DNA from: a gamma proteobacterium endosymbiont of Lamellibrachia anaximandri
GTDB lineage: Bacteria > Pseudomonadota > Gammaproteobacteria > Chromatiales > Chromatiaceae
Assembly: GCA_016756855.1 (NCBI GenBank)
Contig: JAESPD010000020.1
Span: forward strand, 1 to 58,585
Length of the DNA: 58,585 nt
Reading direction: 5' to 3'
The notes under the pieces were generated by a model. That model was not told the DNA's origin and made no database searches. It saw only the letters and a list, made by a program, of their open reading frames with translations. A program made the translations under genes and the position numbers. How positions within the stretch are numbered: the stretch's first letter is position 1; each line of letters opens with the position of its first letter. Of the stretch, positions 2,392 through 55,595 are shown in pieces.

Positions 2392-4411
2392 TTGGTTGAT
2401 TTTCCCAACAATTGGGAAATTGGCGGTTCATCCCCGCAGGTGCGGGGAACACGATGTAGCGATACTCTTTGGCGTCGATTCGAGCCGGTTCATCCCCGCA
2501 GGTGCGGGGAACACGTCATAGACTTCGATACGTAAGTCGGCTACTGCGGTTCATCCCCGCAGGTGCGGGGAACACTTGCCTTTGCGCCTTGGTCTCCAGC
2601 CCAGGCGCGGTTCATCCCCGCAGGTGCGGGGAACACGGCCATCGGGTCGTTCTGAGCCAGGGACTATCCGGTTCATCCCCGCAGGTGCGGGGAACACGGC
2701 CTGATATCGAAACCGATCTTAAACAAGCCCGGTTCATCCCCGCAGGTGCGGGGAACACGGCATTCGCCCCTCTAACAATCCTTTCCATTACGGTTCATCC
2801 CCGCAGGTGCGGGGAACACAAAATTGGCTGCATCTTTGCGGTTAAGCCTGGCGGTTCATCCCCGCAGGTGCGGGGAACACTGCCTCTCTGCCTTTCTGTC
2901 GGTCAAATTCTGCGGTTCATCCCCGCAGGTGCGGGGAACACACTCTCTGATCCACCCAACCAGCCAGCGGGGCAACGGTTCATCCCCGCAGGTGCGGGGA
3001 ACACCTTTTCTGCGGTAACGATTTGTCTACCACTTGCGGTTCATCCCCGCAGGTGCGGGGAACACTCCTTCGCCGCCGTTCCCCTCTTCGGTGGGATCGG
3101 TTCATCCCCGCAGGTGCGGGGAACACTTTATCCACTGGTGATTAGCCAACCAAAATGACGGTTCATCCCCGCAGGTGCGGGGAACACACTAGGGCAGGTT
3201 AAAGTGATAAATTCGCCAACGGTTCATCCCCGCAGGTGCGGGGAACACTGCATCACGCACTTTCTCAAGTACCCCTGATTCGGTTCATCCCCGCAGGTGC
3301 GGGGAACACCCCGATATCGTATGGGAGTTTTTCCCGGAGATCGGTTCATCCCCGCAGGTGCGGGGAACACTGATAACTCTTGATGAGAAGACCGGGGAGG
3401 TTCGGTTCATCCCCGCAGGTGCGGGGAACACGGCGGTTGGTGCGCGGGACGCCTTGGTGAAAGGCGGTTCATCCCCGCAGGTGCGGGGAACACTGTTCCA
3501 ATCCTCAACGGAGTAGTCGTAATATCGGTTCATCCCCGCAGGTGCGGGGAACACCGAGATCCCCAGCGGGACATCCACGAGATAGCCGGTTCATCCCCGC
3601 AGGTGCGGGGAACACAACCGCAGCGTTGGCGAGGTCGGGGACGTTCGCGGTTCATCCCCGCAGGTGCGGGGAACACAAATCAAGAATCAGACTGCCGATC
3701 TTTGCCATCGGTTCATCCCCGCAGGTGCGGGGAACACTCAACGAAGTCAAGGTACGGTGATCCAATAGACGGTTCATCCCCGCAGGTGCGGGGAACACGG
3801 AACGCTTCTCCATTAGTAGCACGTACAACCCGGTTCATCCCCGCAGGTGCGGGGAACACTGCAGGTGGCAAGTTCTCTTCGTGCAGAGTTGCGGTTCATC
3901 CCCGCAGGTGCGGGGAACACGCTTTGCATGTGCAGGCGTAAAGCGTCGATCCGCGGTTCATCCCCGCAGGTGCGGGGAACACTCCAAGGGGTTCCTGCTG
4001 GGTCTACATACATCCGGTTCATCCCCGCAGGTGCGGGGAACACCCCTCCGGATACCCCATAACTCTTTCCGTAAGACGGTTCATCCCCGCAGGTGCGGGG
4101 AACACAATTACCCGGCCATCCGGCGTGACTATTCCACCCGGTTCATCCCCGCAGGTGCGGGGAACACATTTAGTTTTCCTCTGCGTGATCGTCGGTGGGC
4201 GGTTCATCCCCGCAGGTGCGGGGAACACAGATAGCCCTGGAGATCGAAAAGAGAATCGGACGGTTCATCCCCGCAGGTGCGGGGAACACTACGTCGTCGC
4301 CCTTGGTATGATCGATTTTGTCGGTTCATCCCCGCAGGTGCGGGGAACACGCGGTTCCCGTGGCATGTGGCCTTAATATGGTCGGTTCATCCCCGCAGGT
4401 GCGGGGAACAC

Positions 4412-4444
4412 AACGGGTAGATCGCGGAACGCTGTCTTTTTTCA
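4412..4444 (-). other. CRISPR spacer, partner of the spacer at 4596
   Basis: Its first 18 plus-strand bases (AACGGGTAGATCGCGGAA) are the exact reverse complement of the first 18 of the spacer at 4596-4628. The two protospacers therefore overlap on opposite strands of one target, and together they reconstruct about 48 bp of it. Confidence 0.9.
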
Positions 4445-4595
4445 CGGTTCATCCCCGCAGGTGCGGGGAACACTCTATTATCTCATCGAATGATTGCTTT
4501 ATACCCGGTTCATCCCCGCAGGTGCGGGGAACACAAGAGTTTTCCCCTTCGTAGCCGGTCGCCTCGCGGTTCATCCCCGCAGGTGCGGGGAACAC

Positions 4596-4628
4596 TTCCG
4601 CGATCTACCCGTTTTGCAAGCATCCTCC
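4596..4628 (-). other. CRISPR spacer overlapping the 4412 spacer on the opposite strand
   Basis: Begins TTCCGCGATCTACCCGTT, the exact reverse complement of the start of the spacer at 4412-4444. The adjoining repeat at 4629 has T instead of C as first plus-strand base, so the PAM-derived base in crRNA sense is A rather than G. Confidence 0.9.
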
Positions 4629-5025
4629 TGGTTCATCCCCGCAGGTGCGGGGAACACCCGGATCAAAAATCGCAGCCGCCGTGCTGGATCGGTTCATCCC
4701 CGCAGGTGCGGGGAACACGCACTCTCAGCAAACTGATAAGCCAGAGAGAAACGGTTCATCCCCGCAGGTGCGGGGAACACTTCATCCGCAGCAGTCAAAG
4801 TGCTACCGCCATCGGTTCATCCCCGCAGGTGCGGGGAACACTCTCTCCACGATTTGGTATCTCGAATCCTGACCGGTTCATCCCCGCAGGTGCGGGGAAC
4901 ACAACCCATTCATGCAGTGGCGGGCAACCTCTCCGCGGTTCATCCCCGCAGGTGCGGGGAACACCTCAGACTCAACCTGTTTCGCCCACTCGACACCGGT
5001 TCATCCCCGCAGGTGCGGGGAACAC

Positions 5026-5057
5026 GAGTTTAAACAGATCGGGCGGTACACACAGGA
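5026..5057 (-). other. CRISPR spacer nearly the reverse complement of the 5453 spacer; probably integrated flipped
   Basis: Twenty-nine of its 32 bases are the exact reverse complement of the spacer at 5453-5484. Its plus strand starts with G, and the partner spacer shows that this G is preceded by AA in the target, giving an AAG PAM. The neighbouring repeat at 5058 carries A instead of C. Both facts fit a 33-nt prespacer (5026-5058) inserted backwards. Confidence 0.85.
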
Positions 5058-5452
5058 AGGTTCATCCCCGCAGGTGCGGGGAACACGGATCAGTCGCCCC
5101 CTGACTGGAAAACAGCTCCGGTTCATCCCCGCAGGTGCGGGGAACACCATTGAGCACACAGCATGAATAAGAGAAAAATCGGTTCATCCCCGCAGGTGCG
5201 GGGAACACAGAACAAATACGCCTACCTGCGCTGTAAATTCAGGTTCATCCCCGCAGGTGCGGGGAACACTGCGCTTTCCGGATTGCGGGCTATCCATTCG
5301 CCGGTTCATCCCCGCAGGTGCGGGGAACACATTTCAGCTATCCCGCCCCAGTCATAAGTGGCCGGTTCATCCCCGCAGGTGCGGGGAACACACAGATCAC
5401 ATGGGCAGAGAGCATCCAATCAGCGGTTCATCCCCGCAGGTGCGGGGAACAC

Positions 5453-5484
5453 TGTGTGTACCGCCCGATCTGTTTAAACTCTTT
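5453..5484 (-). other. CRISPR spacer, partner of the 5026 spacer
   Basis: Shares 29 nt in reverse complement with the spacer at 5026-5057. Its adjoining repeat base at 5485 is the normal C (G in crRNA sense), as expected for correct orientation after an AAG PAM. Confidence 0.9.
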
Positions 5485-6127
5485 CGGTTCATCCCCGCAG
5501 GTGCGGGGAACACATTGTGTCAGGCAAATCAGGAATACCGTGAGACCGGTTCATCCCCGCAGGTGCGGGGAACACGCCAGTTCAAGCATAACCGCAAGCG
5601 GGTCTACGCGGTTCATCCCCGCAGGTGCGGGGAACACCCTTTGATGCCGGCAGAGCCGTCGAGTTCTTCCAGGTTCATCCCCGCAGGTGCGGGGAACACT
5701 ACTGGCAAAGAACACAAAGAGCTTGCGCGGACGGTTCATCCCCGCAGGTGCGGGGAACACGTTTCCAGTACGGCAGTAAGGGCAGGCCACGCCGGTTCAT
5801 CCCCGCAGGTGCGGGGAACACAGATGATGTTGGATACCGCGTTTACCCTGTGTCGGTTCATCCCCGCAGGTGCGGGGAACACTCCATTATGGACGCCGGG
5901 AGCGCAACGGTCGCACGGTTCATCCCCGCAGGTGCGGGGAACACCATCCCGCTATCTCATCAAGCGTGACGTTATTCGGTTCATCCCCGCAGGTGCGGGG
6001 AACACCGCTGATATAGGGGCAGAGGTGGTTCCTATACCGGTTCATCCCCGCAGGTGCGGGGAACACGATACCGATTTAACCATTTGCTTCACCCGTTACG
6101 GTTCATCCCCGCAGGTGCGGGGAACAC

Positions 6128-6172
6128 TGATTGCCGGGCCAGCCTGGCGCATGACAGCGCGTGTTCACGGGC
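6128..6172 (-). other. Over-long CRISPR spacer (45 nt)
   Basis: The repeats at 6099 and 6173 are 74 bp apart, leaving a 45-nt spacer where 32-33 is the rule. Both flanking repeats are intact and no repeat remnant is seen inside. The length is 12 nt more than the common 33-nt spacers. Confidence 0.95.
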
Positions 6173-7484
6173 CGGTTCATCCCCGCAGGTGCGGGGAACA
6201 CAATAGTCCCTCACGCTCTTTACGGAGCCAATTCGGTTCATCCCCGCAGGTGCGGGGAACACGCTGATTTCCTGCGCTGTTTTTGCTGTGCTGGCGGTTC
6301 ATCCCCGCAGGTGCGGGGAACACTCCTGCGGATCGCGTATCCAGGACATTGTAGCCGGTTCATCCCCGCAGGTGCGGGGAACACGGTTGCGCCGTCAACT
6401 GACAGAACGCCGCCAACGGTTCATCCCCGCAGGTGCGGGGAACACCAGACAGCCCGATTACTACGTCACTCGTGACGCGGTTCATCCCCGCAGGTGCGGG
6501 GAACACTTGCCACCCATTCAGGGGTCATGACAATATCACGGTTCATCCCCGCAGGTGCGGGGAACACTTCTACCCCTCGCGCCAGACTGGTTGATGAGGC
6601 GGTTCATCCCCGCAGGTGCGGGGAACACTCGGGAAAAAACCGCTCGCCTTACGGCGGCGGCGGTTCATCCCCGCAGGTGCGGGGAACACATCAGTCGAAC
6701 CAAAAAGAACAGGCGCAGCGGCGGTTCATCCCCGCAGGTGCGGGGAACACACATAGGGACAATTGAATGCGGGATATGTGGGCGGTTCATCCCCGCAGGT
6801 GCGGGGAACACTGCTGGAAAACTGACACCTATCACCTTCCCGGCGGTTCATCCCCGCAGGTGCGGGGAACACATCCGCCACCGACATAACCCTATCCCAA
6901 ACATCGGTTCATCCCCGCAGGTGCGGGGAACACCCGTGACAGGCAACCATCGACGAATGATTTATCGGTTCATCCCCGCAGGTGCGGGGAACACTTGCGA
7001 GATGGTATCGAGTGCCACCACACATGCGGTTCATCCCCGCAGGTGCGGGGAACACGCCGTCAGACTGTATGTGGACAGCCAGTTCGCCGGTTCATCCCCG
7101 CAGGTGCGGGGAACACTTATAATGGAGTGATTCCAATTCGCCCTCTGACAGGTTCATCCCCGCAGGTGCGGGGAACACTATCCCGGTTGAGTCTTCGCTC
7201 GGTACCGCGACGGTTCATCCCCGCAGGTGCGGGGAACACCTTGGTGTTGTCTCTCCAGCTCTTCAAGCTGCGCGGTTCATCCCCGCAGGTGCGGGGAACA
7301 CGTATTCGTCATCGCCGTTGGCGTTGGCCAAGTCGGTTCACCCCCGCAGGTGCGGGGAACACGTGTGGTGGTATTCCCACCCCTTTCCTTTAGCCGGTTC
7401 ATCCCCGCAGGTGCGGGGAACACGATTTCCTGCTGCACTGCAGCCACGAACAAGTCGGTTCATCCCCGCAGGTGCGGGGAACAC

Positions 7485-7577: not shown

Positions 7578-8769
<1,192 letters not shown>

Positions 8770-8793: not shown

Positions 8794-9198
8794 TCAATCC
8801 AATAGTTTGACCTGACAACTCGTATGCTGGGCATATCGCGTCAGTTTCTGGTCGAATGTGGCGAACTGACGTGTTGCAGCGGCTGTGATAGCGAGATGCA
8901 GTGCATCGGCAAAATCCATGTTGTTCCGCAGGCCTTGCAGGGCCAAGGACAAGTCATCCGGCCTGTCGATCGTAACTTGCTCAAGTCCCGCCAGTTTTTC
9001 CAGAGCGTCAGCTATCTGCGCAGGTTTGAATCTGTAGGCAAAACGCAGAACCCATTCAAGTTCCAGGATGACCGTGTTTGGGATGAATATCTGATTCCCA
9101 TCGAACAGTGACAGTGCTGTCTGGTACTGGCTTTCGTCGTCTCGGGTCAGCAAGCGAACCACAACATTGGTATCAACGCCGATCATCTTTATTGGCAC
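8794..9198 (-). CDS. vapC: PIN-domain toxin of a VapBC pair, inside the cas operon
   Basis: A 134-aa PIN-domain ribonuclease of VapC type. The acidic residues expected at the metal site are present: D9 in MIGVDTNVVVRLL, E46/E48 in ILELEW, D98 in DFADALH and D116 in FATFDQK. VapC toxins cleave tRNA or rRNA and stop translation when the antitoxin is lost. The ORF overlaps the upstream antitoxin by 26 bp, the usual arrangement. It sits between cas6e and cas1, where type I-E operons normally have no other gene. The specific RNA target is unknown. Confidence 0.9.
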   Translation of the reverse strand: MPIKMIGVDTNVVVRLLTRDDESQYQTALSLFDGNQIFIPNTVILELEWVLRFAYRFKPAQIADALEKLAGLEQVTIDRPDDLSLALQGLRNNMDFADALHLAITAAATRQFATFDQKLTRYAQHTSCQVKLLD

Positions 9199-9442
9199 TT
9201 TTCATGGCTCCTTGCGCTATTGCCGCTTCCAACTCTTCCAATGATTTTGTCTTACCGCTGTATGGGAGGCATCCGGCTACGCTCTTTAAATTGGTCTTCT
9301 TAAAAGGTTGTTTTTCTTTCAGCATCAGGCCATCTTCCGAGTCGATAACTTCCAGTTCCTGGCCCTCATGCCAATGATGCTTGTCACGAATAGACTTTGG
9401 AATAACTACCTGACCTTTGCTTGATAAGCGGGTAGAACTCAT
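9173..9442 (-). CDS. vapB: AbrB-type antitoxin of a VapBC pair
   Basis: An 89-aa protein with an N-terminal SpoVT/AbrB swapped-hairpin DNA-binding domain (MSSTRLSSKGQVVIPKSIRD and the following GQELEVIDSEDGLML). The C-terminal tail, residues ~50-89, should wrap the toxin. The N-terminal domain normally binds the operator to autoregulate the pair. It has its own -10 box upstream, so it need not depend on the cas promoter. Confidence 0.9.
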   Translation of the reverse strand: MSSTRLSSKGQVVIPKSIRDKHHWHEGQELEVIDSEDGLMLKEKQPFKKTNLKSVAGCLPYSGKTKSLEELEAAIAQGAMKSANKDDRR

Positions 9443-9522: not shown

Positions 9523-10203
9523 TTAAATCCGGCGTATCAGAAGCAGGCCGCAGCCGAGTCCTTTGGCTGGGCCAATGCCCTGGGTCAGCAGTGTTAGAAA
9601 GCTTTCTGGATCGGTGATTGTCAGCGTACCGCTAAGGTCGAGGCTGCTGTAGCTTATAGCAGCTTTCTGGTTTCGCTTGCTCTCTTTGTGCTGTTGATAG
9701 TGCTCCGCTGTAATACTGTTCAATTGAGCTCCAGTACGTTCCAGGCGGGGTTCGAGCCATTGCTTACCTGCCTGTTGCCAGATGGCTGCCTGATGAGGTC
9801 TCTTGGCAGGTGATTGCTTGCGCCAGCCAGTTTTCGTTTTGATGTCCATGACTAGATCATGTCGCTGACGTTTGCCGTTGCGAACATTTTTTCGTGTGAC
9901 TACGGGGTTTGCACGTAGACTGAAGGCCAGTAGTTGGCCTGTCTGTAGTTGTGGGCGATAGTCGCGCTGGTCAATTTGCCAGACTCCGCTGCGATCAACA
10001 GGCTGGCGATTTGATAGCAGGTAAAATTGTGGCCAGCCATCGTTGTCGTTGCGGCGAAAAAGGAAGTCGCGTTTTGCCTCTGGGTTGTCATCGAAAAGAC
10101 GCCACAGTTGCTGGTGCTCGGAATAACTGCTCTGTTGGCAGAGCTGTTGCGCCAGCTTGCGGGTATCTGTATCCGTACGTAATCGTATGCGGCTGAAATA
10201 CAT
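9523..10203 (-). CDS. cas6e: Cas6e crRNA-processing endoribonuclease
   Basis: A 226-aa Cas6e (Cse3/CasE). It cuts pre-crRNA at the base of the repeat hairpin and stays bound to the 3' handle as part of Cascade. Visible features: N-terminal MYFSRIRLR strand, the conserved His in YSEHQQLWRLF near residue 30 where the catalytic His lies in the family, and the C-terminal glycine-rich loop GIGPAKGLGCGLLL. It starts 2 bp after cas5, so it is co-translated. Length is normal. Confidence 0.93.
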   Translation of the reverse strand: MYFSRIRLRTDTDTRKLAQQLCQQSSYSEHQQLWRLFDDNPEAKRDFLFRRNDNDGWPQFYLLSNRQPVDRSGVWQIDQRDYRPQLQTGQLLAFSLRANPVVTRKNVRNGKRQRHDLVMDIKTKTGWRKQSPAKRPHQAAIWQQAGKQWLEPRLERTGAQLNSITAEHYQQHKESKRNQKAAISYSSLDLSGTLTITDPESFLTLLTQGIGPAKGLGCGLLLIRRI

Positions 10204-10205
10204 GG

Positions 10206-10952
10206 TTAATCCTCCGTGGCACTCTGTGTGGCCATATATTCGATACGCTCATCGAATTGCCAGCGTCTGCGGCTACGTAATCGATCCCGGCGCGGATAGG
10301 TCATTTCGGGTGAGAGATCAGTTTCGTCGCTATCCCAATACAGACGGGTTACTTTCTCCTTAATCAGTCCTCCAAATCCCCATAATCCATGAGTCAGTGT
10401 ATCGAGTGCAGATTGTGGGTCAGGGTACTGATCAAAAGCCTCAGCAAGCCCGTTAGCCTCGATGATTTTTGCGGCGAGCGGCAGTGATAGCGGACAGGAT
10501 TTGCGACCTAGATAGAGCTGGAGTCTTGGACGGGCAAGTGCCTCGGAAATTTCGTTTAACGAGAAAACACTGTTTTGCTTACAACCTAAAGCGATAGTGG
10601 CGGCGCAGTCACATCGGTAATCACGGCTGGAGAGGATGGTATGTAGCTTGTCTGCATTCAGTTCATCCTGACGTGTGTAATGGGTAACTTTGCGTTGGGT
10701 AGGTGGCACCTGTGTTGTGTGGTAATCACGCAGTACCTCTCCGGGTGCATCCAGGCGGATTGCTACATTGATAGATCTGTCGAGACTCAGTAACTTCTCT
10801 TCCTGATCACGTCGTATGCCTAGTGCGGCGGCTACCAGTCCAAGCGTAGCGGTACGGGTAGGATGATCGTGGCTGGGGCGGAACTCTCCCACTGCTGTGT
10901 CGCCCCAAGCTGCCATCGGACCGTACAGGCGAAACAATAGATAACTCTGCAT
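10206..10952 (-). CDS. cas5: Cas5e, Cascade subunit
   Basis: A 248-aa Cas5e (CasD), which caps the crRNA 5' handle in Cascade. I start it at the internal ATG giving MQSYLLFRLYGPMAAWGD, the family N terminus, rather than 17 codons upstream inside cas7. This leaves 4 bp after the cas7 stop. The RAMP fold is supported by the PSHDHPTRTATLGLVAAALGI segment. It is part of a compact cse1-cse2-cas7-cas5-cas6e run. Confidence 0.93.
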   Translation of the reverse strand: MQSYLLFRLYGPMAAWGDTAVGEFRPSHDHPTRTATLGLVAAALGIRRDQEEKLLSLDRSINVAIRLDAPGEVLRDYHTTQVPPTQRKVTHYTRQDELNADKLHTILSSRDYRCDCAATIALGCKQNSVFSLNEISEALARPRLQLYLGRKSCPLSLPLAAKIIEANGLAEAFDQYPDPQSALDTLTHGLWGFGGLIKEKVTRLYWDSDETDLSPEMTYPRRDRLRSRRRWQFDERIEYMATQSATED

Positions 10953-10956
10953 AGCC

Positions 10957-12039
10957 TTAGTCTCCGCTGATGCACTCAATAATGCCTTGCAGGCTGCCTT
11001 CACCCGTTTCGGCGTTCAAGCTGCAACGCCTATCCGCACAAGCGCCATAAACCTGATCCATTTTTTTGACGGTTTCGTTTATATTTTGGATAGACTGCGC
11101 CAACAGATCGTTGCCGCCAATTGGCTTGAGAAAGGCTACTGAGAGGGAACGGGGTTGTTGATCGCCCTTTTCACACAAAATGTAAGAGGCACGGGCGCGG
11201 GAGGCAAAGCTGTTTTGTTTGCCGCTGGGTGCGATAGTAGCGGCTGATTCAATCAGTGCGGCCAGTGTTTTGTCAGCCAGTGCAGTATCGCCGGAGAGAT
11301 TTTCGATCAGCAGTTCTCGGTCGATGCAGAGGTAAAGATAGAACAGACCGGCAGCGAATTCGGTTTCTCCCATGTGGGCGGCCCCCATATCTTCCTCGCC
11401 GTTGTTCAGATCATCAACAGCTGTAAAAAAGTCATCTTCCACGGTGACCTTATGCACGCTGATGGCATGTGCGACCTGGGCGGCCGCTTCGGTGTTGTAG
11501 GCGGGGCTTGAAGCTAGCATGCGGCCGAAGAGGGCGATGTCGGCGGCGGTATGTTGTTTTCGCAGTAAGGCCAATTGTTCGTTGCTTGGTGCGTCATCGC
11601 CGTTGGCTAATTCGTCAATGAGCTTTGTGATTGCCTGCTGCTCTTCCGGACTGAAGTGAGCTAGTTGTTCGATTTCCAGTTCAGTCTGGCGTTTGTTTTC
11701 ATCGGCGTCGACCTTCTCTTTTTTTGAGAGTGTTTTCAGTTTACCGAACACGCCAGCGATGGCTTGGGCATAGCTGAAGGCTGCTTTGTCTTTAACGCCT
11801 TTTTCCAGTAATTGCTGATAGATATCCCGCCCCATTTCCTTTGTGCGGACCCCCAAATGATCAGTTAGTGCTGAGCGAAAGATGTCGGAGGTGCGCCAAG
11901 CACGTTTAAGGCTTTGTGAAGAGACGCGCAGGCGATTCGCACCTCCCATCATAGCGGTTTTTGGTCGCCCGAGATCATCACGATTGAGGTTGGCTGGTGG
12001 GTAAGAAGTAAGCAGGTGCAGCTGAATGAATTTACTCAT
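10957..12039 (-). CDS. cas7: Cas7e, Cascade backbone subunit
   Basis: A 360-aa Cas7e (Cse4/CasC). Six copies form the helical backbone that coats the crRNA spacer. The N terminus FIQLHLLTSYPPANLNRDD and the following RLRVSSQSLKRAWR are diagnostic of the family. A charged segment at residues ~100-150 (KKEKVDADENKRQTELEIEQ) is the variable thumb-like insertion. Twenty bp separate it from cse2, and cas5 follows after 4 bp. Confidence 0.95.
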   Translation of the reverse strand: MSKFIQLHLLTSYPPANLNRDDLGRPKTAMMGGANRLRVSSQSLKRAWRTSDIFRSALTDHLGVRTKEMGRDIYQQLLEKGVKDKAAFSYAQAIAGVFGKLKTLSKKEKVDADENKRQTELEIEQLAHFSPEEQQAITKLIDELANGDDAPSNEQLALLRKQHTAADIALFGRMLASSPAYNTEAAAQVAHAISVHKVTVEDDFFTAVDDLNNGEEDMGAAHMGETEFAAGLFYLYLCIDRELLIENLSGDTALADKTLAALIESAATIAPSGKQNSFASRARASYILCEKGDQQPRSLSVAFLKPIGGNDLLAQSIQNINETVKKMDQVYGACADRRCSLNAETGEGSLQGIIECISGD

Positions 12040-12059: not shown

Positions 12060-12551
12060 TCAGGCGGTTTTGGTTTCAGGCACAAAGGGGAAGTAGGCGA
12101 AGGCCCAGCGCTTACGCACGCTATCACCCCAGTAGTAGACGGAACTGATCAGGTCGGGCAGATTGGCGGTGTGCCCGAGCATGTGCAATATGCGGATCAT
12201 TGCCAGATAGAGATCATCGGGTTTCTCCTGTAGCAGTCGGCGAAAACGCAATTCACTGACGACAGGTTTGCCGTCACCGGCCATGGCGCGGGCGAGGTCG
12301 CGTGCTGTGGTATGCCGGCAATGGGATAAAAGGCCGACAACCCGGGCGAGCCGTAACTCCCAGTTATGATCACTATTCAGAAAGGGTTCGAGACGTTTGC
12401 ACAATCGAATATATGCTGGATGAAGCATGACCTGGGTCGGGCCGTTACAGCGGCGCAGTGTGGCGCGGGTACCCCGGTCATTTTCCAGTGATTGCCACCA
12501 GGTTGTCAGTATCCCGGTGCCGGGACCATCGGGTGCAAATACTTTGCTCAT
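12060..12551 (-). CDS. cse2: Cse2, Cascade small subunit
   Basis: A 163-aa Cse2 (CasB), present as a dimer along the belly of Cascade that stabilises the displaced strand of the R-loop. It is helical and basic; the segment LRRCNGPTQVMLHPAYIRL near residues 33-51 is typical. Its start overlaps the cse1 stop by 4 bp (ATGA). Confidence 0.92.
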   Translation of the reverse strand: MSKVFAPDGPGTGILTTWWQSLENDRGTRATLRRCNGPTQVMLHPAYIRLCKRLEPFLNSDHNWELRLARVVGLLSHCRHTTARDLARAMAGDGKPVVSELRFRRLLQEKPDDLYLAMIRILHMLGHTANLPDLISSVYYWGDSVRKRWAFAYFPFVPETKTA

Positions 12552-14143
12552 GCGGCTTTCTCCTTGTTGTTGAGTTGCAGTTTTTCCTTCAATTTTTTGC
12601 TGTAGAGCCAGTTTTTGAGTTTCTTGTGGGCAGTGGCGATGCGTCTTGGATTGACAGTTTCAAAGTCTCCGCGGCTGGTCCAGTAATCAAACAGCTGAAA
12701 GGCGCTATCACACAGCGTTCGATGCCACTCTCTCAGTATCTGGGTTTCGTTCTGGTCTTTGTCGAGTTGGTCTTTGAGTGTTTTCAAGGCAGTAAAGAAG
12801 GCGTTTTCTGTGTGACTGAAAAAGGCTTCCTGCAGGAAATTGGTATCGCCTTTGGCATCGCCGGGACGTTTGAACCAAGCCTCCTTGATAGAGCTGCGGG
12901 TCATGCTGGCGACACCTGTGGCTGTCTCGATAAGAATTTCTGCTATTTCAATGAATTGTTCGCGAATTGTGGCGTCTAGCGGAAATAAGGGAAAAGTGGT
13001 TTCATACCAGCAGCGGGATTTGTTGCTTTTCATATCGTAGCCAAAGGCATGTATCCGCAGTTGTTCGCCTTGTAGCTGTCGGCCGGTACCCTCACTTTCC
13101 AAAAAGCTGGTTATGATTTTTGCTGGGTGGTTGTTGGTACCTGTACTGATCAATCCCAGCCAGTGTTGGTATTGCAGCCCACCTGGCTGCGCGTGTTGCG
13201 GCAGAGCCAAGCCGTCTTTGTTGTTGATGTGTGGACTCAGTGGGTGTTTCCAAGGGCCATCGTAATTGATGCCATAATTTTTTGTATCGCATCGGCTGAT
13301 GAGCGAATCAGATTCTTTGCCACACAAATCGCAAGATCCCCTCGTCGTCTGTTTCCAGTCGAGTCGGATTCGGCGTGGCATACCCCAATACATTTGCAGC
13401 GGGTGGGCATCCTTCGGTGTGGTGATATCGCCCTTTCCATGGCTGGTTCGCGTAGATGAAAGCCAGGGAAAAATGGCGGGGGGTTCTGATAAATCGGTAT
13501 TGCCACTCAATGTAGGCAGATCGCCTTTGTTGAGAACATTGAGCCAACAATCGCGCCATAGTGAATTCGCTAACTGCTGGTTGTTGCCTGAGTCATGATG
13601 AGTGTCCAAAGCGACAAGGGTAGTCAGGGGGCCGCCACCTCGTAAGGACGTGCGATAGCCTCTTCCCCCTTCTGGTGCATTTGTTTGTAACGTAAACAGT
13701 GCAGTAGCCGCACAATTCGGACAAATGTTGTTTACGTTGCCTCGTTTAATGAAGTGGTCTCTATTTTCTCTCAATGCTTTGTCGCCAGGTGTTTCGATTA
13801 GCAAGTTGGCGATGGGTTTGAGAACGCCATCCAGGGGGGCATAATCCTGCATGAACTTTGGCCCGTCGGCATCCAGGTTAAATGCGGCCTCATAGGGTTC
13901 AAAAAGTTGTCTGAGCGTTTCAGGCACTGGTAAATTCTCAAGCCATTCGCCCCATTGGTTGTTGTCATCCGGCGGGCAGGCGGTTTGTAACAGGCCGATT
14001 AGAAATTGCAGCAAAGCACCGTTGAAATCGGGGCGGGGTGCTGCCAGTGCCAGCATGTCAGGGTCGCTGATTTGCCAGGGGGCAATGTGGGTCTCTCCCT
14101 GAGTGGTGTGGATGGGTAGCCATTTGTCTTCGAGTAGATTCAT
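12548..14143 (-). CDS. cse1: Cse1 (Cas8e), Cascade large subunit
   Basis: A 531-aa Cse1 (CasA) that reads the PAM and recruits Cas3. I start at the ATG giving MNLLEDKWLPI, the family N terminus; the longer frame runs into cas3. This start overlaps the cas3 stop as ATGA, indicating translational coupling. Two CxxC pairs, CPNC at 141-144 and CDLC near residue 270, suggest a bound zinc. The C-terminal four-helix region that contacts Cas3 is complete. Length is close to E. coli CasA (~500). Confidence 0.94.
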   Translation of the reverse strand: MNLLEDKWLPIHTTQGETHIAPWQISDPDMLALAAPRPDFNGALLQFLIGLLQTACPPDDNNQWGEWLENLPVPETLRQLFEPYEAAFNLDADGPKFMQDYAPLDGVLKPIANLLIETPGDKALRENRDHFIKRGNVNNICPNCAATALFTLQTNAPEGGRGYRTSLRGGGPLTTLVALDTHHDSGNNQQLANSLWRDCWLNVLNKGDLPTLSGNTDLSEPPAIFPWLSSTRTSHGKGDITTPKDAHPLQMYWGMPRRIRLDWKQTTRGSCDLCGKESDSLISRCDTKNYGINYDGPWKHPLSPHINNKDGLALPQHAQPGGLQYQHWLGLISTGTNNHPAKIITSFLESEGTGRQLQGEQLRIHAFGYDMKSNKSRCWYETTFPLFPLDATIREQFIEIAEILIETATGVASMTRSSIKEAWFKRPGDAKGDTNFLQEAFFSHTENAFFTALKTLKDQLDKDQNETQILREWHRTLCDSAFQLFDYWTSRGDFETVNPRRIATAHKKLKNWLYSKKLKEKLQLNNKEKAA

Positions 14144-16917
14144 AGATCTGTTCCTTGAGTTGCCGTGTATTCCTTCTCTGTCATCAAGCCGATTTCGGGG
14201 CTGTAATAAATAGGTGACTTTTCTCCTTTCTGGTTGATGGTGTTGCCTTGCCATAGATCGGATGCTAATGAAACCAACGTTATTAACAGGCCCCATTTTC
14301 CCTTGGCAGGCAGGTTGGTTTTGCATGTTTCCAGTACATCAGCAGGGATCTCCACTTGATGTTCACAAGCATCGGTTACTGCCCGTCGCACAGTCAGGCT
14401 GGATTGTTGCCAGCGGAAAGTGGATGCATTGTACAGTGGTGTCAGCTCTCCATCCTGCCACTTGGCTAGCCATACCTGGGTGGTCTCTTCGCCTAACCGG
14501 GTGGGAGTGTCGGCATCGTCCCACCAGTTATTGGTGTGTTCACGCGAATATCCACCATCCAAGTGCAGGCGATTGAGCTTGCCTTGACCCTGTTGCGCCT
14601 TTTGATTGCCTTCTGCCGTGGCATCGATTTCCTGTAGTCCTTCTGGTATCTCTGCTTCGAGTCCATAGACACCTTCAATCAGGCTGCGGGCATCTTCGGG
14701 CATGCGGAAACCGTTTTGTTCCTTGAGTAGTTTCATGCCCAGCCAAAGCTGGGCATGGTTTTCATAGACGGCTTGGGCTCGGGGGAATGCTTGTTTGAAC
14801 CAATCAGGAGTGGGCACTTCTTGCCACTCTGGTGCATGGATGGTCAGTATAGGTTCCAGACGTTGATCATGGTTTTTTATGGGGTTGCCTTTCACATCCC
14901 GTCGATGCCGGTGCAGGCGGCCTGCGCGTTGGATCAGCAGGTCGATGGGGGCCAAGTCGGAGATCAGATGGTCAAAATCGAGATCCAGAGACTGCTCAAC
15001 CACTTGGGTAGCGATCAGTAACTGGCCTGCGCGTTGATTGTGGTCACCCTTTTTACCGAAGCGTTGGAGGACACGATTCTCGATGCTGATTCGGTCGGCC
15101 AGGCAGAAGCGGGCATGGAAGAGGTCGATCTGCCATTCCGTGTGGTTACACTTCAGCCAGGAATAGATCTTGCGCGCATCCGCTACGGTATTGCATATCC
15201 AGCAGGCGCAATCACCCTGTTCTATCCATTGCGTCAACTGCTGGTTAATCTGATCTCTCTGGCTGATGAAATCGACAGAAATGCGGCGTTTTACCTCTGA
15301 CCGGGTTTGCAGTGCATGTTCTTCGACGGACTCGCCGTTGAAATGCGTGAGCAGTGGATAATCGGTTTTGTCAGTTGAGGGTTTTGACTTGCTTGTCCCC
15401 TCGGCAAAGGCTCTCATCAGTCGTTCTCGCTGAGCTTTTGGTAAGGTTGCAGAGAGAAGAATGGCGCTGCCACCTGCCATGGCATGGGCGGTGAGAAGGC
15501 GTTCCAACAGTGGCAGCATGTAGGCATCACAGGCGTGTACCTCGTCTACCAACAGGACCTTGTTGCTGAGACCAAGCAGCCGCAGTGACTGGTGTTTGTT
15601 GGGTAGGATGCTGAGCAGTGCTTGGTCGATAGTGCCGATACCGATCTCTGCCAACAGTGCCTTTTTGCGGTTATCGGCCAGCCATTCGCCGCAATGTATG
15701 GATGCGGGTGAGATTCCTTCGTTTGGGTAGTCAGCTTCAGGGTGTTTGCTTTGAGGAATGAGTGATTGGCGAAATTTATCAGAAAGGTCGCGTGCGCCAT
15801 GGGCCAGTACCAGTGACGGGGCGGTATTGCTCTCGTAAAACTCCCGGTAGATGTTACCCACGCGGTCATACATGGCATTGGCGGTGGCCATGGTGGGGAG
15901 GCCGAAGTAGAGGCCGTTGGCTAAGCCTGCGGCCATCAGGCGATGGGTAATGAGCAAGGCAGCTTCGGTTTTACCTGCACCAGTAACATCTTCAAGAATA
16001 AATAGTTGTGGTTGATGGCCTAGTGTTAGTGTCGTCGCCAAGTCCTGTAAAGGTGTCGGATTGGCGTCTTGTTTGATATTGAGCAGTTGGGACAGTTCAA
16101 TAGAGTGGCTTGGTCTGGCGGTCAGTAGCTCGGTCTTCGCAATTGCTGTGCCTGCCTGTTGCTTGGCGACTTTCCAATATTCTTCGAAGGAAGCGGGTGA
16201 TGAGTTGTAAGCGAAGAAATCGGCATTTGAGCCTATCCAGTCACATAAGACAGCAAAACCTGCAAGCCACCAGGATGCCTGGCGCGCTGCTTGCATGTCC
16301 CACTTGGGAAGCGTTTCAGTGAAGCTGGGGAACAGCATGAGGATGTCGTCGCTGAAGGCGATCGCGGCTAGCTGGTCTGCTTCGGAAAAATAGCGTTCAT
16401 GTCGGATATGTTTGGCTGATGGTGGCTTGCCGTGGTGACCGGTCATGGCGAGCATGCAGGTGTCGATAGGGTGTGCGCCTTCCCCTCCTCTGCCTGTGCG
16501 TGGGATCAGACCGGTCTGCTGCCAGCGTGGTTTGAGTACACGTTGCCAGAAGGTATAGCCGAGCTGGTCGTGGCGTATGTCGTATTCCTGTGCGGCTGTG
16601 GCTGTCGGGTTGATGGCTTGCGTTATGTCCGGTCGCAACGCCTGAAAACTGGAGGAGAATTTCCCGAGATCGTGAAGAGCCAATAGTGTTGGCAAGCTGG
16701 TGTGGAGGTCTTTTTCTGCCAATCCTGTCAGGCGTTGGAGTGTTTTCCGTAGCGGAAGGTGTTGTTCCAATAGCCGCTGGCCTACTGCCGCCACATCCAG
16801 GCAGTGATACGGCAATAGGTGACAGCCCTGTCCGTCTGTTTGATCAAAAGCGGCCTTGCCCCAATAGCGATAATAGAGCGCCAGGGCACCCGTCTGTTTG
16901 TCATTCCGCTCATCCAT
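14140..16917 (-). CDS. cas3: Cas3 nuclease-helicase, type I-E
   Basis: A 925-aa Cas3 that is recruited to the R-loop and degrades target DNA 3' to 5'. The N-terminal HD nuclease shows H38, the H82-D83 doublet in LLALHDLGKF and the H161-H162 pair in TGHHGKPP. The SF2 helicase follows: Walker A TGAGKT near 312-317, the DEVH box at 458-461, LSATLP near 488-493 and motif VI QRAGRLHRHRR near 695. All catalytic motifs are intact, so interference should be possible. It leads the cas operon, 51 bp downstream of the HIRAN gene on the same strand. Confidence 0.97.
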   Translation of the reverse strand: MDERNDKQTGALALYYRYWGKAAFDQTDGQGCHLLPYHCLDVAAVGQRLLEQHLPLRKTLQRLTGLAEKDLHTSLPTLLALHDLGKFSSSFQALRPDITQAINPTATAAQEYDIRHDQLGYTFWQRVLKPRWQQTGLIPRTGRGGEGAHPIDTCMLAMTGHHGKPPSAKHIRHERYFSEADQLAAIAFSDDILMLFPSFTETLPKWDMQAARQASWWLAGFAVLCDWIGSNADFFAYNSSPASFEEYWKVAKQQAGTAIAKTELLTARPSHSIELSQLLNIKQDANPTPLQDLATTLTLGHQPQLFILEDVTGAGKTEAALLITHRLMAAGLANGLYFGLPTMATANAMYDRVGNIYREFYESNTAPSLVLAHGARDLSDKFRQSLIPQSKHPEADYPNEGISPASIHCGEWLADNRKKALLAEIGIGTIDQALLSILPNKHQSLRLLGLSNKVLLVDEVHACDAYMLPLLERLLTAHAMAGGSAILLSATLPKAQRERLMRAFAEGTSKSKPSTDKTDYPLLTHFNGESVEEHALQTRSEVKRRISVDFISQRDQINQQLTQWIEQGDCACWICNTVADARKIYSWLKCNHTEWQIDLFHARFCLADRISIENRVLQRFGKKGDHNQRAGQLLIATQVVEQSLDLDFDHLISDLAPIDLLIQRAGRLHRHRRDVKGNPIKNHDQRLEPILTIHAPEWQEVPTPDWFKQAFPRAQAVYENHAQLWLGMKLLKEQNGFRMPEDARSLIEGVYGLEAEIPEGLQEIDATAEGNQKAQQGQGKLNRLHLDGGYSREHTNNWWDDADTPTRLGEETTQVWLAKWQDGELTPLYNASTFRWQQSSLTVRRAVTDACEHQVEIPADVLETCKTNLPAKGKWGLLITLVSLASDLWQGNTINQKGEKSPIYYSPEIGLMTEKEYTATQGTDL

Positions 16918-16968: not shown

Positions 16969-17370
16969 TCAAATGGCCAGAAAAACACTAAACCGCACCC
17001 GCCTCCACGGATTGTCATCCTCCAGCGGCCGAACGATGCGCCCTTCCAACTGCTCGCCCCGATCCATCATCTGGGCGAGGGTGCGGTTCTCGCTGCGCGG
17101 GACGTATCCCAGGTGTTCGTTTTTGAACCAGACGGCGATTGCGTTGCGGTCGTATCGGTTGGCAGGCTCGCGGCGCAGTTTCAGGGTCTCTCCGATCTGA
17201 AGAAACTGCCAGATGCCAGGGGCGCGGTGGTATTGGTAGCCGGCCAGGGGTGACTCTTGCAGCAGTACCCGGCGTTTCGGTTCCAGAAGTTGGGTGTTGG
17301 CATTGATCCGTCCACTCAGCCCGATGCCCAGGCTGCCAAACAGGGTGTGCAGGAAGGTTCGGCGTTGCAT
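16969..17370 (-). CDS. Exported HIRAN-domain protein
   Basis: A 133-aa protein: a twin-arginine type signal (MQRRTFLHTLFGSLGIGLSG) followed by a single HIRAN domain at residues ~40-130 (FLQIGETLKLRREPANRYDR, NAIAVWF, LGYVPRSENRTLA). HIRAN domains bind DNA 3' ends in Rad5/HLTF, but stand-alone exported ones have no established role. A good AGGAG ribosome site precedes the ATG. The gene ends 51 bp before cas3 on the same strand, so read-through into the cas operon is possible. The link to CRISPR is positional only. Confidence 0.82.
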   Translation of the reverse strand: MQRRTFLHTLFGSLGIGLSGRINANTQLLEPKRRVLLQESPLAGYQYHRAPGIWQFLQIGETLKLRREPANRYDRNAIAVWFKNEHLGYVPRSENRTLAQMMDRGEQLEGRIVRPLEDDNPWRRVRFSVFLAI

Positions 17371-53525: not shown

Positions 53526-55466
53526 TCAGGCGGCTGTGGACTCAATTTTGCTGAGTAGACTTTGTAGTGGCACAGGACGGCTGAATAGATAGCCCTGAAA
53601 ATACTCACACCCTTTCTCCTTGAGAAATGCAAAAGCTTCCGGGGTCTCCACGCCTTCGGCCACGACCTTCAGTCCCATGTGTCTTGCCATGTCGAGAATC
53701 GTCTCCACAATGATGGCATCGTTGGGGTCGGTTGAGATGTCGCGCACGAATGAACGGTCGATTTTCAGCATTTCAACCGGCAGTTGCTTGAGATAGGCCA
53801 GTGAAGAGTGGCCGGTACCAAAATCATCGATAGAGAAACTGATGCCACATTTTTTTAGCTGCTGCATGCGCGCTACTGTCTGTTCAAAATTCTCTATCAG
53901 CACATTTTCCGTGATCTCGAAGCGCAGGTGTGCGGGGTTGATTCGACAGCCGTGGATAATGTTCTGCACACGTTCGACGAAGTTGGCCTCGCGAAACTGT
54001 TTTGGGCTGACGTTCACAGAGAGGGTAATTGGCCGATTAAATCCTATCTGTGCCATATCCTTGCAAGCGGTGGCGAGCACCCAGTCACCAATCTTATAGA
54101 TGAGTCCGGTCTCTTCCGCCACGGATATGAATTCATTCGGGGCGATGAGGCCGTGTTCCGGATGGTTCCACCGCAGAAGCGCTTCTGCGCCGATACATGT
54201 ACCGGTAATATCCACCTGCAGTTGATAGTAGAGTTCCAGCTCACCGCACACCAAGGCTCTGCGCAGACCCTTTTCGGTCTCCAGGCGCTGATGAACAGCC
54301 TCCTGCATGCTTGGTTGAAAGAATCGGCTCTGATCCCGCCCCTCCGCCTTGGCGCGGTACATCGCCACATCGGCCTGTTGCAGAAGGTCTTCCGGTACAG
54401 CGCCATTGATGGGAAACAGGGTGACGCCGATACTGGCGCTCAAGTGCAGTTCGTGCTCCTGAACCATGAATGGTTCGGTGAATAACTGTTGTACCTGCGC
54501 TGCGAAATTCTGCACCCAACTGGAGGTTATCTCCCTGCTATCGCCGATCTCAGTGAGCAGAATGACAAACTCGTCACCACCCAAGCGGGCGGCGGTGTCT
54601 TCGTTGCGGATTCGGTGCTGGAGTCGTTGGGCAACTTGTTGTAGGAGTTGATCACCCACTTGGTGACCGAGGGAGTCGTTGATGTTTTTGAAATGGTCGA
54701 GATCGAGAAACAGGATCGCGCCAAAGTGTTGATGCCGCTGTGCGCGGGTGATCTCCTGGTTGAGGCGGTCTATGAACAGGCGGCGGTTCGGCAGTTGGGT
54801 CAGTTCATCATAGTGGGCCTGGTAGATGATCGTCTCTTCAGCGCGCTGCCGTTCATAACGGACTTTTAGTGACTCCTGAATAGACTGGCTGATCCGCCTG
54901 GAGGAGGCGAACACCATCGCCGTGAAGAGGATGCCCATGATTGTCATGGCGTATCCGACATCTGACTCCAGGGAGAGGAAACGCCAGACCAACGGTAGCA
55001 ATGTCAGTAGCAGAAAGGCTGCCGCCGCCGTAAAGACGGAGGAGAGGGTGGTGACTGCGCCAGCCGACATGCCGGCTATGACAAAAACCAGAAGTGCCTG
55101 ATAGGCAACATGCTCCAGCGGAAAAAGCAGCAGAGATGCAGCGCCCCATAGTGCGCCGGAGAGAGTGGCGCCGAGGATTGCCAGCTTTCTCCAATGCTCG
55201 ATCTCATTATCCTGCGTAGGCGTAATGGAGAGAAAATTGCGATAGGTCAGAAAGCGGTAGAGCGTTGTCAGGTAGACAGCAACAAGCCAGCCAATGATCG
55301 TCGAGTGGTCAATCACCCGCCACAACACGAGCGACAGTATTGAACTGTTGATCAGGATGGCGAGCAGAGAGAACGGCATCGATCGGTAGATCAGCCGGGT
55401 CTGCTCCGCTTTGATATTTTGCTCTGCACTAGCGTCCTTTGCCAATTCGCCAGTATTTTGAATCAT
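53526..55466 (-). CDS. Membrane GGDEF-EAL cyclic-di-GMP protein
   Basis: A 646-aa protein with about six N-terminal membrane helices (~25-195), a GGDEF domain with intact LGGDEFVILL near residue 295 and an inhibitory I-site (RNED five residues before it), and an EAL domain with GAEALLRW near 427 and IDDFGTGHSSL. All catalytic motifs look intact, so it could both make and cleave c-di-GMP. The longer frame adds 21 residues; I start at MIQNTGELAK. The membrane part may be a MASE-like sensor. Alone on the strand. Confidence 0.92.
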   Translation of the reverse strand: MIQNTGELAKDASAEQNIKAEQTRLIYRSMPFSLLAILINSSILSLVLWRVIDHSTIIGWLVAVYLTTLYRFLTYRNFLSITPTQDNEIEHWRKLAILGATLSGALWGAASLLLFPLEHVAYQALLVFVIAGMSAGAVTTLSSVFTAAAAFLLLTLLPLVWRFLSLESDVGYAMTIMGILFTAMVFASSRRISQSIQESLKVRYERQRAEETIIYQAHYDELTQLPNRRLFIDRLNQEITRAQRHQHFGAILFLDLDHFKNINDSLGHQVGDQLLQQVAQRLQHRIRNEDTAARLGGDEFVILLTEIGDSREITSSWVQNFAAQVQQLFTEPFMVQEHELHLSASIGVTLFPINGAVPEDLLQQADVAMYRAKAEGRDQSRFFQPSMQEAVHQRLETEKGLRRALVCGELELYYQLQVDITGTCIGAEALLRWNHPEHGLIAPNEFISVAEETGLIYKIGDWVLATACKDMAQIGFNRPITLSVNVSPKQFREANFVERVQNIIHGCRINPAHLRFEITENVLIENFEQTVARMQQLKKCGISFSIDDFGTGHSSLAYLKQLPVEMLKIDRSFVRDISTDPNDAIIVETILDMARHMGLKVVAEGVETPEAFAFLKEKGCEYFQGYLFSRPVPLQSLLSKIESTAA

Positions 55467-55595
55467 AGTAATAGTTATATTCGAATTCAGGGTTTGCCTT
55501 GGATCAAATGGAGCGTATAGATAAAGCACTCTTCTACTTATATCGGCATGATAGCCTAAAACATGAATTTAATGAGGATATAGTTCTATTTTTGT

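Follow-up and report, generated by a model that had tools for sequence, protein, structure and literature searches.

A probable flipped spacer and the later, correctly oriented recapture of its site in a natural type I-E CRISPR array

Introduction

A newly stored CRISPR spacer works or fails according to its orientation, which the PAM guides. In the 58,585-nucleotide stretch of DNA analysed here (the window), a contig of an endosymbiont of Lamellibrachia anaximandri, two spacers of a single type I-E array match each other on opposite strands. This raises the question of whether one of them was integrated backwards, and whether natural arrays keep a readable record of such errors. For type I-E adaptation in E. 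coli, spacers of opposite orientation (flipped spacers) were reportedly described by Shmakov et al. in 2014 (doi 10.1093/nar/gku226); a PAM-adjacent prespacer is said to be integrated backwards there, yielding complementary spacer pairs.

The base that follows the type I-E repeat core is the G remaining from the PAM, according to two papers (PMC8482600, PMC5059440). The latter reports I-E flipping for canonical and, more often, non-canonical PAMs. It also describes slips as well as flips for Pectobacterium, in its native type I-F system, with an estimated <0.5% of spacers flipped. Direct and reverse integration products of synthetic 33-bp prespacers are presented in PMC6787059. The measurements of orientation error rates that we found come from laboratory experiments (PMC5059440, PMC6787059).

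Results

The type I-E array of the window lies beside its cas genes (Table 1). cas3, cse1, cse2, cas7, cas5, cas6e and cas1 form one run adjoining the array; on the minus strand the order runs from cas3 to cas1, then an ORF at the cas2 position, then the array. We take this ORF to be cas2 from its position and opening residues, and the genes matching Pfam CRISPR_assoc and Cas_CT1975 are presumably cas6e and cas7, respectively. Transcription from the minus strand is indicated by the repeat end ...GATGAACC(G) together with the side on which the cas genes are located. Blocks were numbered from the leader, low numbers being young, and each block, read on the transcribed strand, comprises the first base past the 28-nt repeat core and the spacer that follows, usually of 32 nt. 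The core and the PAM-derived G recur with a 61-nt period, as expected of type I-E. G comes first in 77/82 blocks, and 65/82 are 33 nt long.

Several further features were observed at this locus. A PIN-domain gene (8794-9198, minus strand) lies between cas6e and cas1 and is preceded by a small ORF (9173-9442, minus strand) that we take to resemble an AbrB-type antitoxin; the two presumably form a VapBC-like toxin-antitoxin pair among the cas genes. A HIRAN-domain protein is encoded immediately upstream of cas3 (16969-17370, minus strand). Block 22 (6128-6173) is 46 nt long, well over the usual 33-34 nt, and a 45-nt block is also present in a same-genus array (G020 block 15, L037). The repeat at 7335-7362, near the leader, differs at a single base (plus-strand T to C), a difference absent from the two younger repeats. 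Weak cas1 matches, under the cut-off, at about 55057-55965 of G000:C68, in the same genome as the window, suggest that a second CRISPR type may be present.

Table 1. Positions of the array, selected spacer blocks and cas genes in the window
Feature	Position	Strand	Remarks
Type I-E CRISPR array	2425..7484	-	83 repeats (28-nt core), 82 spacer blocks; leader at right end
Block 58	3921..3954	-	G099:C10, 4 mismatches, PAM AAG
Block 47	4596..4629	-	34 nt, starts AG; putative slip
Blocks 39-44	4781..5119	-	six in a row including block 40; all map to G099:C10, 1 to 7 mismatches
Block 40, probable flipped spacer	5026..5058	-	minus strand T-TCCTGTGTGTACCGCCCGATCTGTTTAAACTC; T replaces PAM-derived G, C at far end
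Block 40, base after 28-nt repeat core	5058..5058	-	T (A on plus) where G expected
Block 37	5209..5241	-	starts TG; read as one-base slip; target AAAG-ATG-AATTTGC, 3 mismatches
Block 33, normal spacer, same site as block 40	5453..5485	-	younger; PAM ATG in G099:C10
Block 31	5576..5609	-	G099:C10, 6 mismatches, PAM AAG
Block 30	5638..5671	-	34 nt, starts TG; putative slip
Block 6	7117..7150	-	34 nt, starts TG; putative slip
ORF, cas2 position	7578..7877	-	ORF read in place
cas1, type I-E	7858..8769	-	cas1_ECOLI above its cut-off
cas6e	9523..10203	-	Pfam CRISPR_assoc
cas5	10206..11003	-	
cas7	10957..12039	-	Pfam Cas_CT1975
cse2 (cas11)	12060..12551	-	
cse1 (cas8e)	12548..14326	-	
cas3	14140..16917	-	

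An inverted-repeat search found 30 nt at 5026-5055 and 5452-5481 to be 100% complementary. Position 5452 is the repeat end, leaving a 29-nt spacer-to-spacer match between blocks 40 and 33; this exact opposite-strand match, first reported in a sequence-only reading of the locus, was also recovered by the array parse. The next longest overlap within the 82-block array is 18 nt (blocks 47 and 50), then 10 nt. Among 3,159 distinct blocks of the arrays examined (14-nt exact seed required), the pair is the longest opposite-strand overlap, followed by one of 28 nt in L068. Simple arithmetic puts a chance 29-nt identity among 3,321 block pairs far below 1e-10, indicating that blocks 40 and 33 arose by repeated sampling of one target. 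Minus-strand transcription of the array makes spacer 33 the normal member, seven positions younger than block 40. Pairing between the crRNAs of the two blocks is possible over about 29 bp (computed -54 kcal/mol, with the handle drawn from the repeat), the complementarity to which the sequence-only reading had pointed; a biological importance of this pairing is speculation.

Two other opposite-strand overlaps were inspected. The 28-nt pair of L068, blocks 12 and 16, is G-first and C-last in both members; if one were flipped, its PAM would be CAG or GTG. Blocks 50 (4412-4445) and 47 (4596-4629) of the window overlap by their 18 nt on opposite strands, with flip sides AAA and CGT; as neither is canonical, these look like two ordinary captures of one site.

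Block 40 starts with T and ends with C on the transcribed strand. The array parse confirmed that plus-strand base 5058 is A, where 77/82 blocks have C. This change had been proposed as the sign of a flipped insertion; it is present as described, but is insufficient alone, because five of the 82 blocks (block 40 and blocks 6, 30, 37 and 47) have a changed base and such a change by itself proves no flip. A flip also leaves a C at the far end, as the PAM-derived G:C pair is relocated there. On the transcribed strand, the mark of a flip is accordingly a changed repeat-end base combined with a C as the last base of the block, and within the window both elements are found in block 40 only.

The other four G-less blocks look like one-base slips. 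Blocks 6, 30, 37 and 47 start with TG, TG, TG and AG, respectively; three of the four have a length of 34 nt, and a final C is absent from all of them (0/4). Block 37, the only one of them with a target, has ATG one base in. Most simply, it was cut one base early in the ATG PAM; a slip off the AAG further up is also possible. Blocks 6, 30 and 47 are placed in this class from their sequence.

A pattern search of 194 family genomes at ≤3 mismatches found one place outside the window that carries the target, on contig 10 of the same-genus genome G099 (G099:C10), with one mismatch that falls in the 32-nt spacer. The site lies in a lambda-type portal gene, near genes for a gpA-type terminase, an S49 protease and capsid E, and we regard the region as prophage or phage. 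The portal gene sequence equals that of QGON01000053.1, a MAG contig of a bacterium endosymbiont of Escarpia laminata, which was also the only record returned when genome_contigs was searched with the portal protein. This protein (L032 10236-11882) matches, at its C terminus (residues 485-539), the RNA polymerase alpha C-terminal domain, apparently an unusual feature in a portal protein. Other portal relatives within the family (best 58% identity) were set aside and not used.

Within the first 80,000 bases of G099:C10, ten of the 82 blocks have a match at ≤8 mismatches (block 31, 6 mismatches; 33, 1; 37, 3; 39, 1; 40, 1; 41, 5; 42, 3; 43, 2; 44, 7; 58, 4), and none of the letter-reversed blocks used as a control matched there. 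Ten blocks on one contig indicate that the phage was sampled many times, six times in consecutive blocks (39-44). Mismatch count showed no trend with spacer age among these mapped blocks. All eight G-first blocks among them adjoin a canonical type I-E PAM: AAG for blocks 31, 42, 43, 44 and 58, ATG for 33 and 39, and AGG for 41.

The target of the pair spans GATGAAAGAGTT...CACACAGGAAGAG in G099:C10 (in full, GATGAAAGAGTTCAAACAGATCGGGCGGTACACACAGGAAGAG), and the end bases unique to each block, AAA and GGAA, are both in place there. The own side of block 40, which reads into TTCCTGTGTG, has TCT (context AACTCT|TCC). With no canonical PAM within one or two bases of it, a slipped origin was rejected for block 40. 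The flip side (GATGAAAGAG) has AAG. This contrast between the two sides, seen in a related target that differs by one mismatch, supports the proposal of the sequence-only reading that 5026-5058 is a prespacer inserted in reverse. That reading had also derived the AAG from the array alone, needing nothing outside it, and was right to do so: the AA preceding the flip-side G of block 40 is supplied by block 33 itself, and G099:C10 agrees, giving AA before GAGTTTAAAC in the related target. The target string it predicted, AAG-AAA-GAG, was found as ATG-AAA-GAG; the bases after the PAM are as foreseen, but in this relative the PAM of block 33 is ATG, as in two of the eight canonical matches, and not AAG.

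From these sequence comparisons we estimate at roughly 95% the probability that block 40 is a flipped spacer whose site was later captured correctly as block 33. Some points weigh against it. The target is that of a relative and differs from the 32-nt spacer by one mismatch; in the phage met by the ancestor, other bases could have stood in place of TCT. An AAG would stand by chance beside a given point about once in 64, and more often in an A-rich stretch. Three scans of viral contigs (a 24-nt core and two degenerate codon patterns) yielded no target for block 40, a phage collection searched with it returned 17-nt matches only (E = 4), and a search of viral contigs with the portal protein gave one 30% relative and no closer phage. 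Among five other marked blocks, taken up below, one was checkable, and diverged relatives of another show non-canonical flip-side bases, its last bases being unaligned.

Block 40 could instead have been taken normally from the opposite strand at a non-canonical PAM ending in T, with the AAG on its other side arising by chance. Non-G blocks that are not flips do exist, and about half of the 33-nt non-G blocks lie outside the flip excess reported below. This origin is nevertheless very unlikely, as it would require acquisition at TCT, judged from the related target, together with an AAG that falls in exact register by chance. Across the exact opposite-strand overlaps in the fetched arrays, the flip side reads AAG in 1 of 12 readings, and that one is block 40. 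Own-side readings of exact opposite-strand pairs are AAG in 4/4; for all exact overlaps (n = 8) they are AAG (six), AGG (one) and CAG (one). Same-strand readings for overlaps with 1 to 3 mismatches (n = 6), which may include chance overlaps, are AAG, CAG, CAA, AAA, AGC and GGG. An artefact, whether an assembly error in one of the spacers, which the sequence-only reading had named as a possible refutation, or a rearrangement within the array that inverted a spacer, is hardly credible: repeat arrays are prone to misassembly and this assembly is in 205 contigs, but the blocks differ at both ends, the unique ends of each match G099:C10 in place, all repeats (83/83) keep a single orientation and the copies are offset by 4 nt.

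The flip mark was then sought in other arrays, with no use of targets. A first, exploratory sample was drawn from 369 genomes of the class: apart from that of the window, 29 passed the family cut-off for type I-E cas1 (NCBIfam TIGR03638), and a stretch next to the gene was fetched from each. An array was detectable in 25 of the 29 stretches; adding the window and the same-genus L036 and L037, and omitting the one-spacer fragments L038 and L039, gave 28 arrays. The 24 with G in ≥70% of blocks were kept, and L073-L076, which have other bases, were dropped. L074 and L076 lie beside I-E cas1 and have C-first blocks (68/71 and 29/30 distinct blocks, respectively), which suggests a PAM ending in C. 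Among 33-nt blocks of this sample, a final C was present in 16/30 non-G blocks vs 237/842 G-first blocks (p = 0.004); at all lengths the counts were 17/37 vs 274/924 (p = 0.03). Shuffling of ends within arrays gave p = 0.0008 for 33-nt blocks and 0.01 for all lengths.

For a second sample, three predictions and an 85% G filter were fixed in writing beforehand. Searches covered 398 genomes of the phylum (28 with a match) and 210 of the order (55 with a match), and the 48 stretches with the strongest cas1 matches in genomes not previously used were fetched. Weaker matches were omitted, as genomes of that kind had yielded, in the first sample, repeats of another sort or none that could be used. 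Both the restriction to the strongest matches and the threshold of at least 5 new blocks in an array were added outside the written plan. An array was found in 41/48 stretches and 36 passed; L081, L092 and L121 were dropped for size and L085 and L090 for their G content (77-78%). In the latter two, 4/8 and 1/2 non-G blocks end in C, respectively.

The C excess recurred in the second sample, with 40/61 non-G vs 556/1814 G-first blocks of 33 nt ending in C (p = 4e-8), and 44/68 vs 602/1903 at all lengths. Within-array shuffling gave a mean of 20.3 and reached 40 in 0 of 5000 rounds. Final C was the strongest of 128 position-by-base tests (3.7e-8; next, 0.003). All 34-nt non-G blocks had G as second base (6/6 vs 26/81 for G-first, p = 0.002), matching the prediction for slips. 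A predicted confinement of the C excess to non-G blocks without a second G failed (12/17 with vs 28/44 without); as the excess is present with a second G also, the second G is no marker of slips among 33-nt blocks. Both samples combined under the 85% filter (56 arrays) gave 56/87 vs 790/2640 blocks ending in C (p = 8e-11), or 55/85 vs 775/2577 with the window excluded (p = 1e-10).

If the excess represents flips, and allowing for flips hidden among G-first blocks, the flipped fraction in the second sample (1,875 blocks) is 2.4% (bootstrap 1.6-3.2%), a figure which assumes ordinary ends in non-flipped non-G blocks and comes from partly related arrays that are not phylogenetically independent. 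This suggests that about 2.4% of spacers are flipped in the type I-E arrays tested. Among blocks bearing the same mark as block 40, about 77% would be flips (excess 0.504 x 61 = 31/40), with no target needed.

Outside the window, 59 blocks bear the mark, and five of these, all belonging to L117 or L118, were each used as a query against named collections, not each in both. Block 11 of L117 matches four E. coli plasmid records at 33/33 bases; in NZ_CP024150.1, the one record from which flanks were taken, the block adjoins ATG on its flip side and TCT on its own. Block 42 of L118 has diverged matches to Erwinia and Aeromonas phages, with the last three or four bases largely unaligned and flip-side bases ATC, TTG and AAC in three of them. 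The remaining three gave no match in the collections searched. In the same-genus array of G120 (L036), blocks 17 and 22 also bear the mark (T start, C end); a search of 194 genomes with block 22 returned no match other than itself.

That the C excess stems from something besides flipping, for instance from base composition or from misalignment close to degenerate repeats, is improbable, though less so than the rivals weighed for block 40. It would fit the phylogenetic non-independence of the arrays, the failed restriction of the excess to blocks without a second G, and a flip-side PAM that is readable in only two marked blocks, block 40 of the window and block 11 of L117. Against it stand the position of final C at the top of the 128 tests and the shuffling result; in addition, the flip side is AAG or ATG, and the own side TCT, in the two cases that could be read.

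Discussion

For block 40, we propose that Cas1-Cas2 took a normal 33-bp prespacer, made up of the G of an AAG PAM and 32 nt from the portal gene of a phage, and inserted it back to front. Backward integration would put the PAM-derived G:C pair at the far end and bring the other end of the prespacer, T and not G, against the repeat. The flip may have been caused by loss of the PAM cue during prespacer trimming; PMC6787059 proposes that integration takes its direction from an asymmetric prespacer whose PAM-end overhang is trimmed late. The flanks of G099:C10 were presumably also those of the target that the ancestor met. With TCT on its own side, the block 40 crRNA would be expected not to license cleavage; it might still prime (the accessible part of PMC6568314 lists no value for TCT). 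Block 33 would have captured the same site later, shifted by 4 nt, in the productive orientation and from an ATG PAM.

The E. coli I-E flips reportedly involve the same unit as block 40, a backward PAM-adjacent prespacer that yields complementary pairs. They were seen in laboratory populations, whereas block 40 is fixed in a natural array together with a correct spacer of the same site; flips being known from laboratory E. coli, block 40 is a natural case of a known error. The reverse product in PMC6787059 ends GGGC against the next repeat, the geometry of block 40, but was obtained there with supplied oligonucleotides and plasmid-expressed cas1-cas2, whereas block 40 is a natural acquisition. 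The type I-F system of Pectobacterium, according to PMC5059440, has both kinds of error, as the window array probably does. According to the same paper, the PAM base never enters the array in type I-F, unlike I-E, so its repeat end should carry no flip mark. The additions made here are a natural flipped and correct pair with a related target, and a flip estimate made from arrays alone; no array-only estimate was found in the literature among the matches listed, a scope that mostly leaves out subscription papers.

Natural type I-E arrays probably record their own orientation errors. Flips would make up about 2-3% of spacers and be callable as a class from the lost G and the far-end C, with slips as a separate class that is clearest among 34-nt blocks with a second G. 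Flips may persist as duds or priming-only guides while the site is recaptured correctly, as for blocks 40 and 33, which hold an error and a later correct capture of one site within one natural array. The flip mark offers a way to estimate the type I-E flip rate without known targets. For PAM surveys, this suggests that non-G blocks should be treated first as flips or slips, not as new PAMs.
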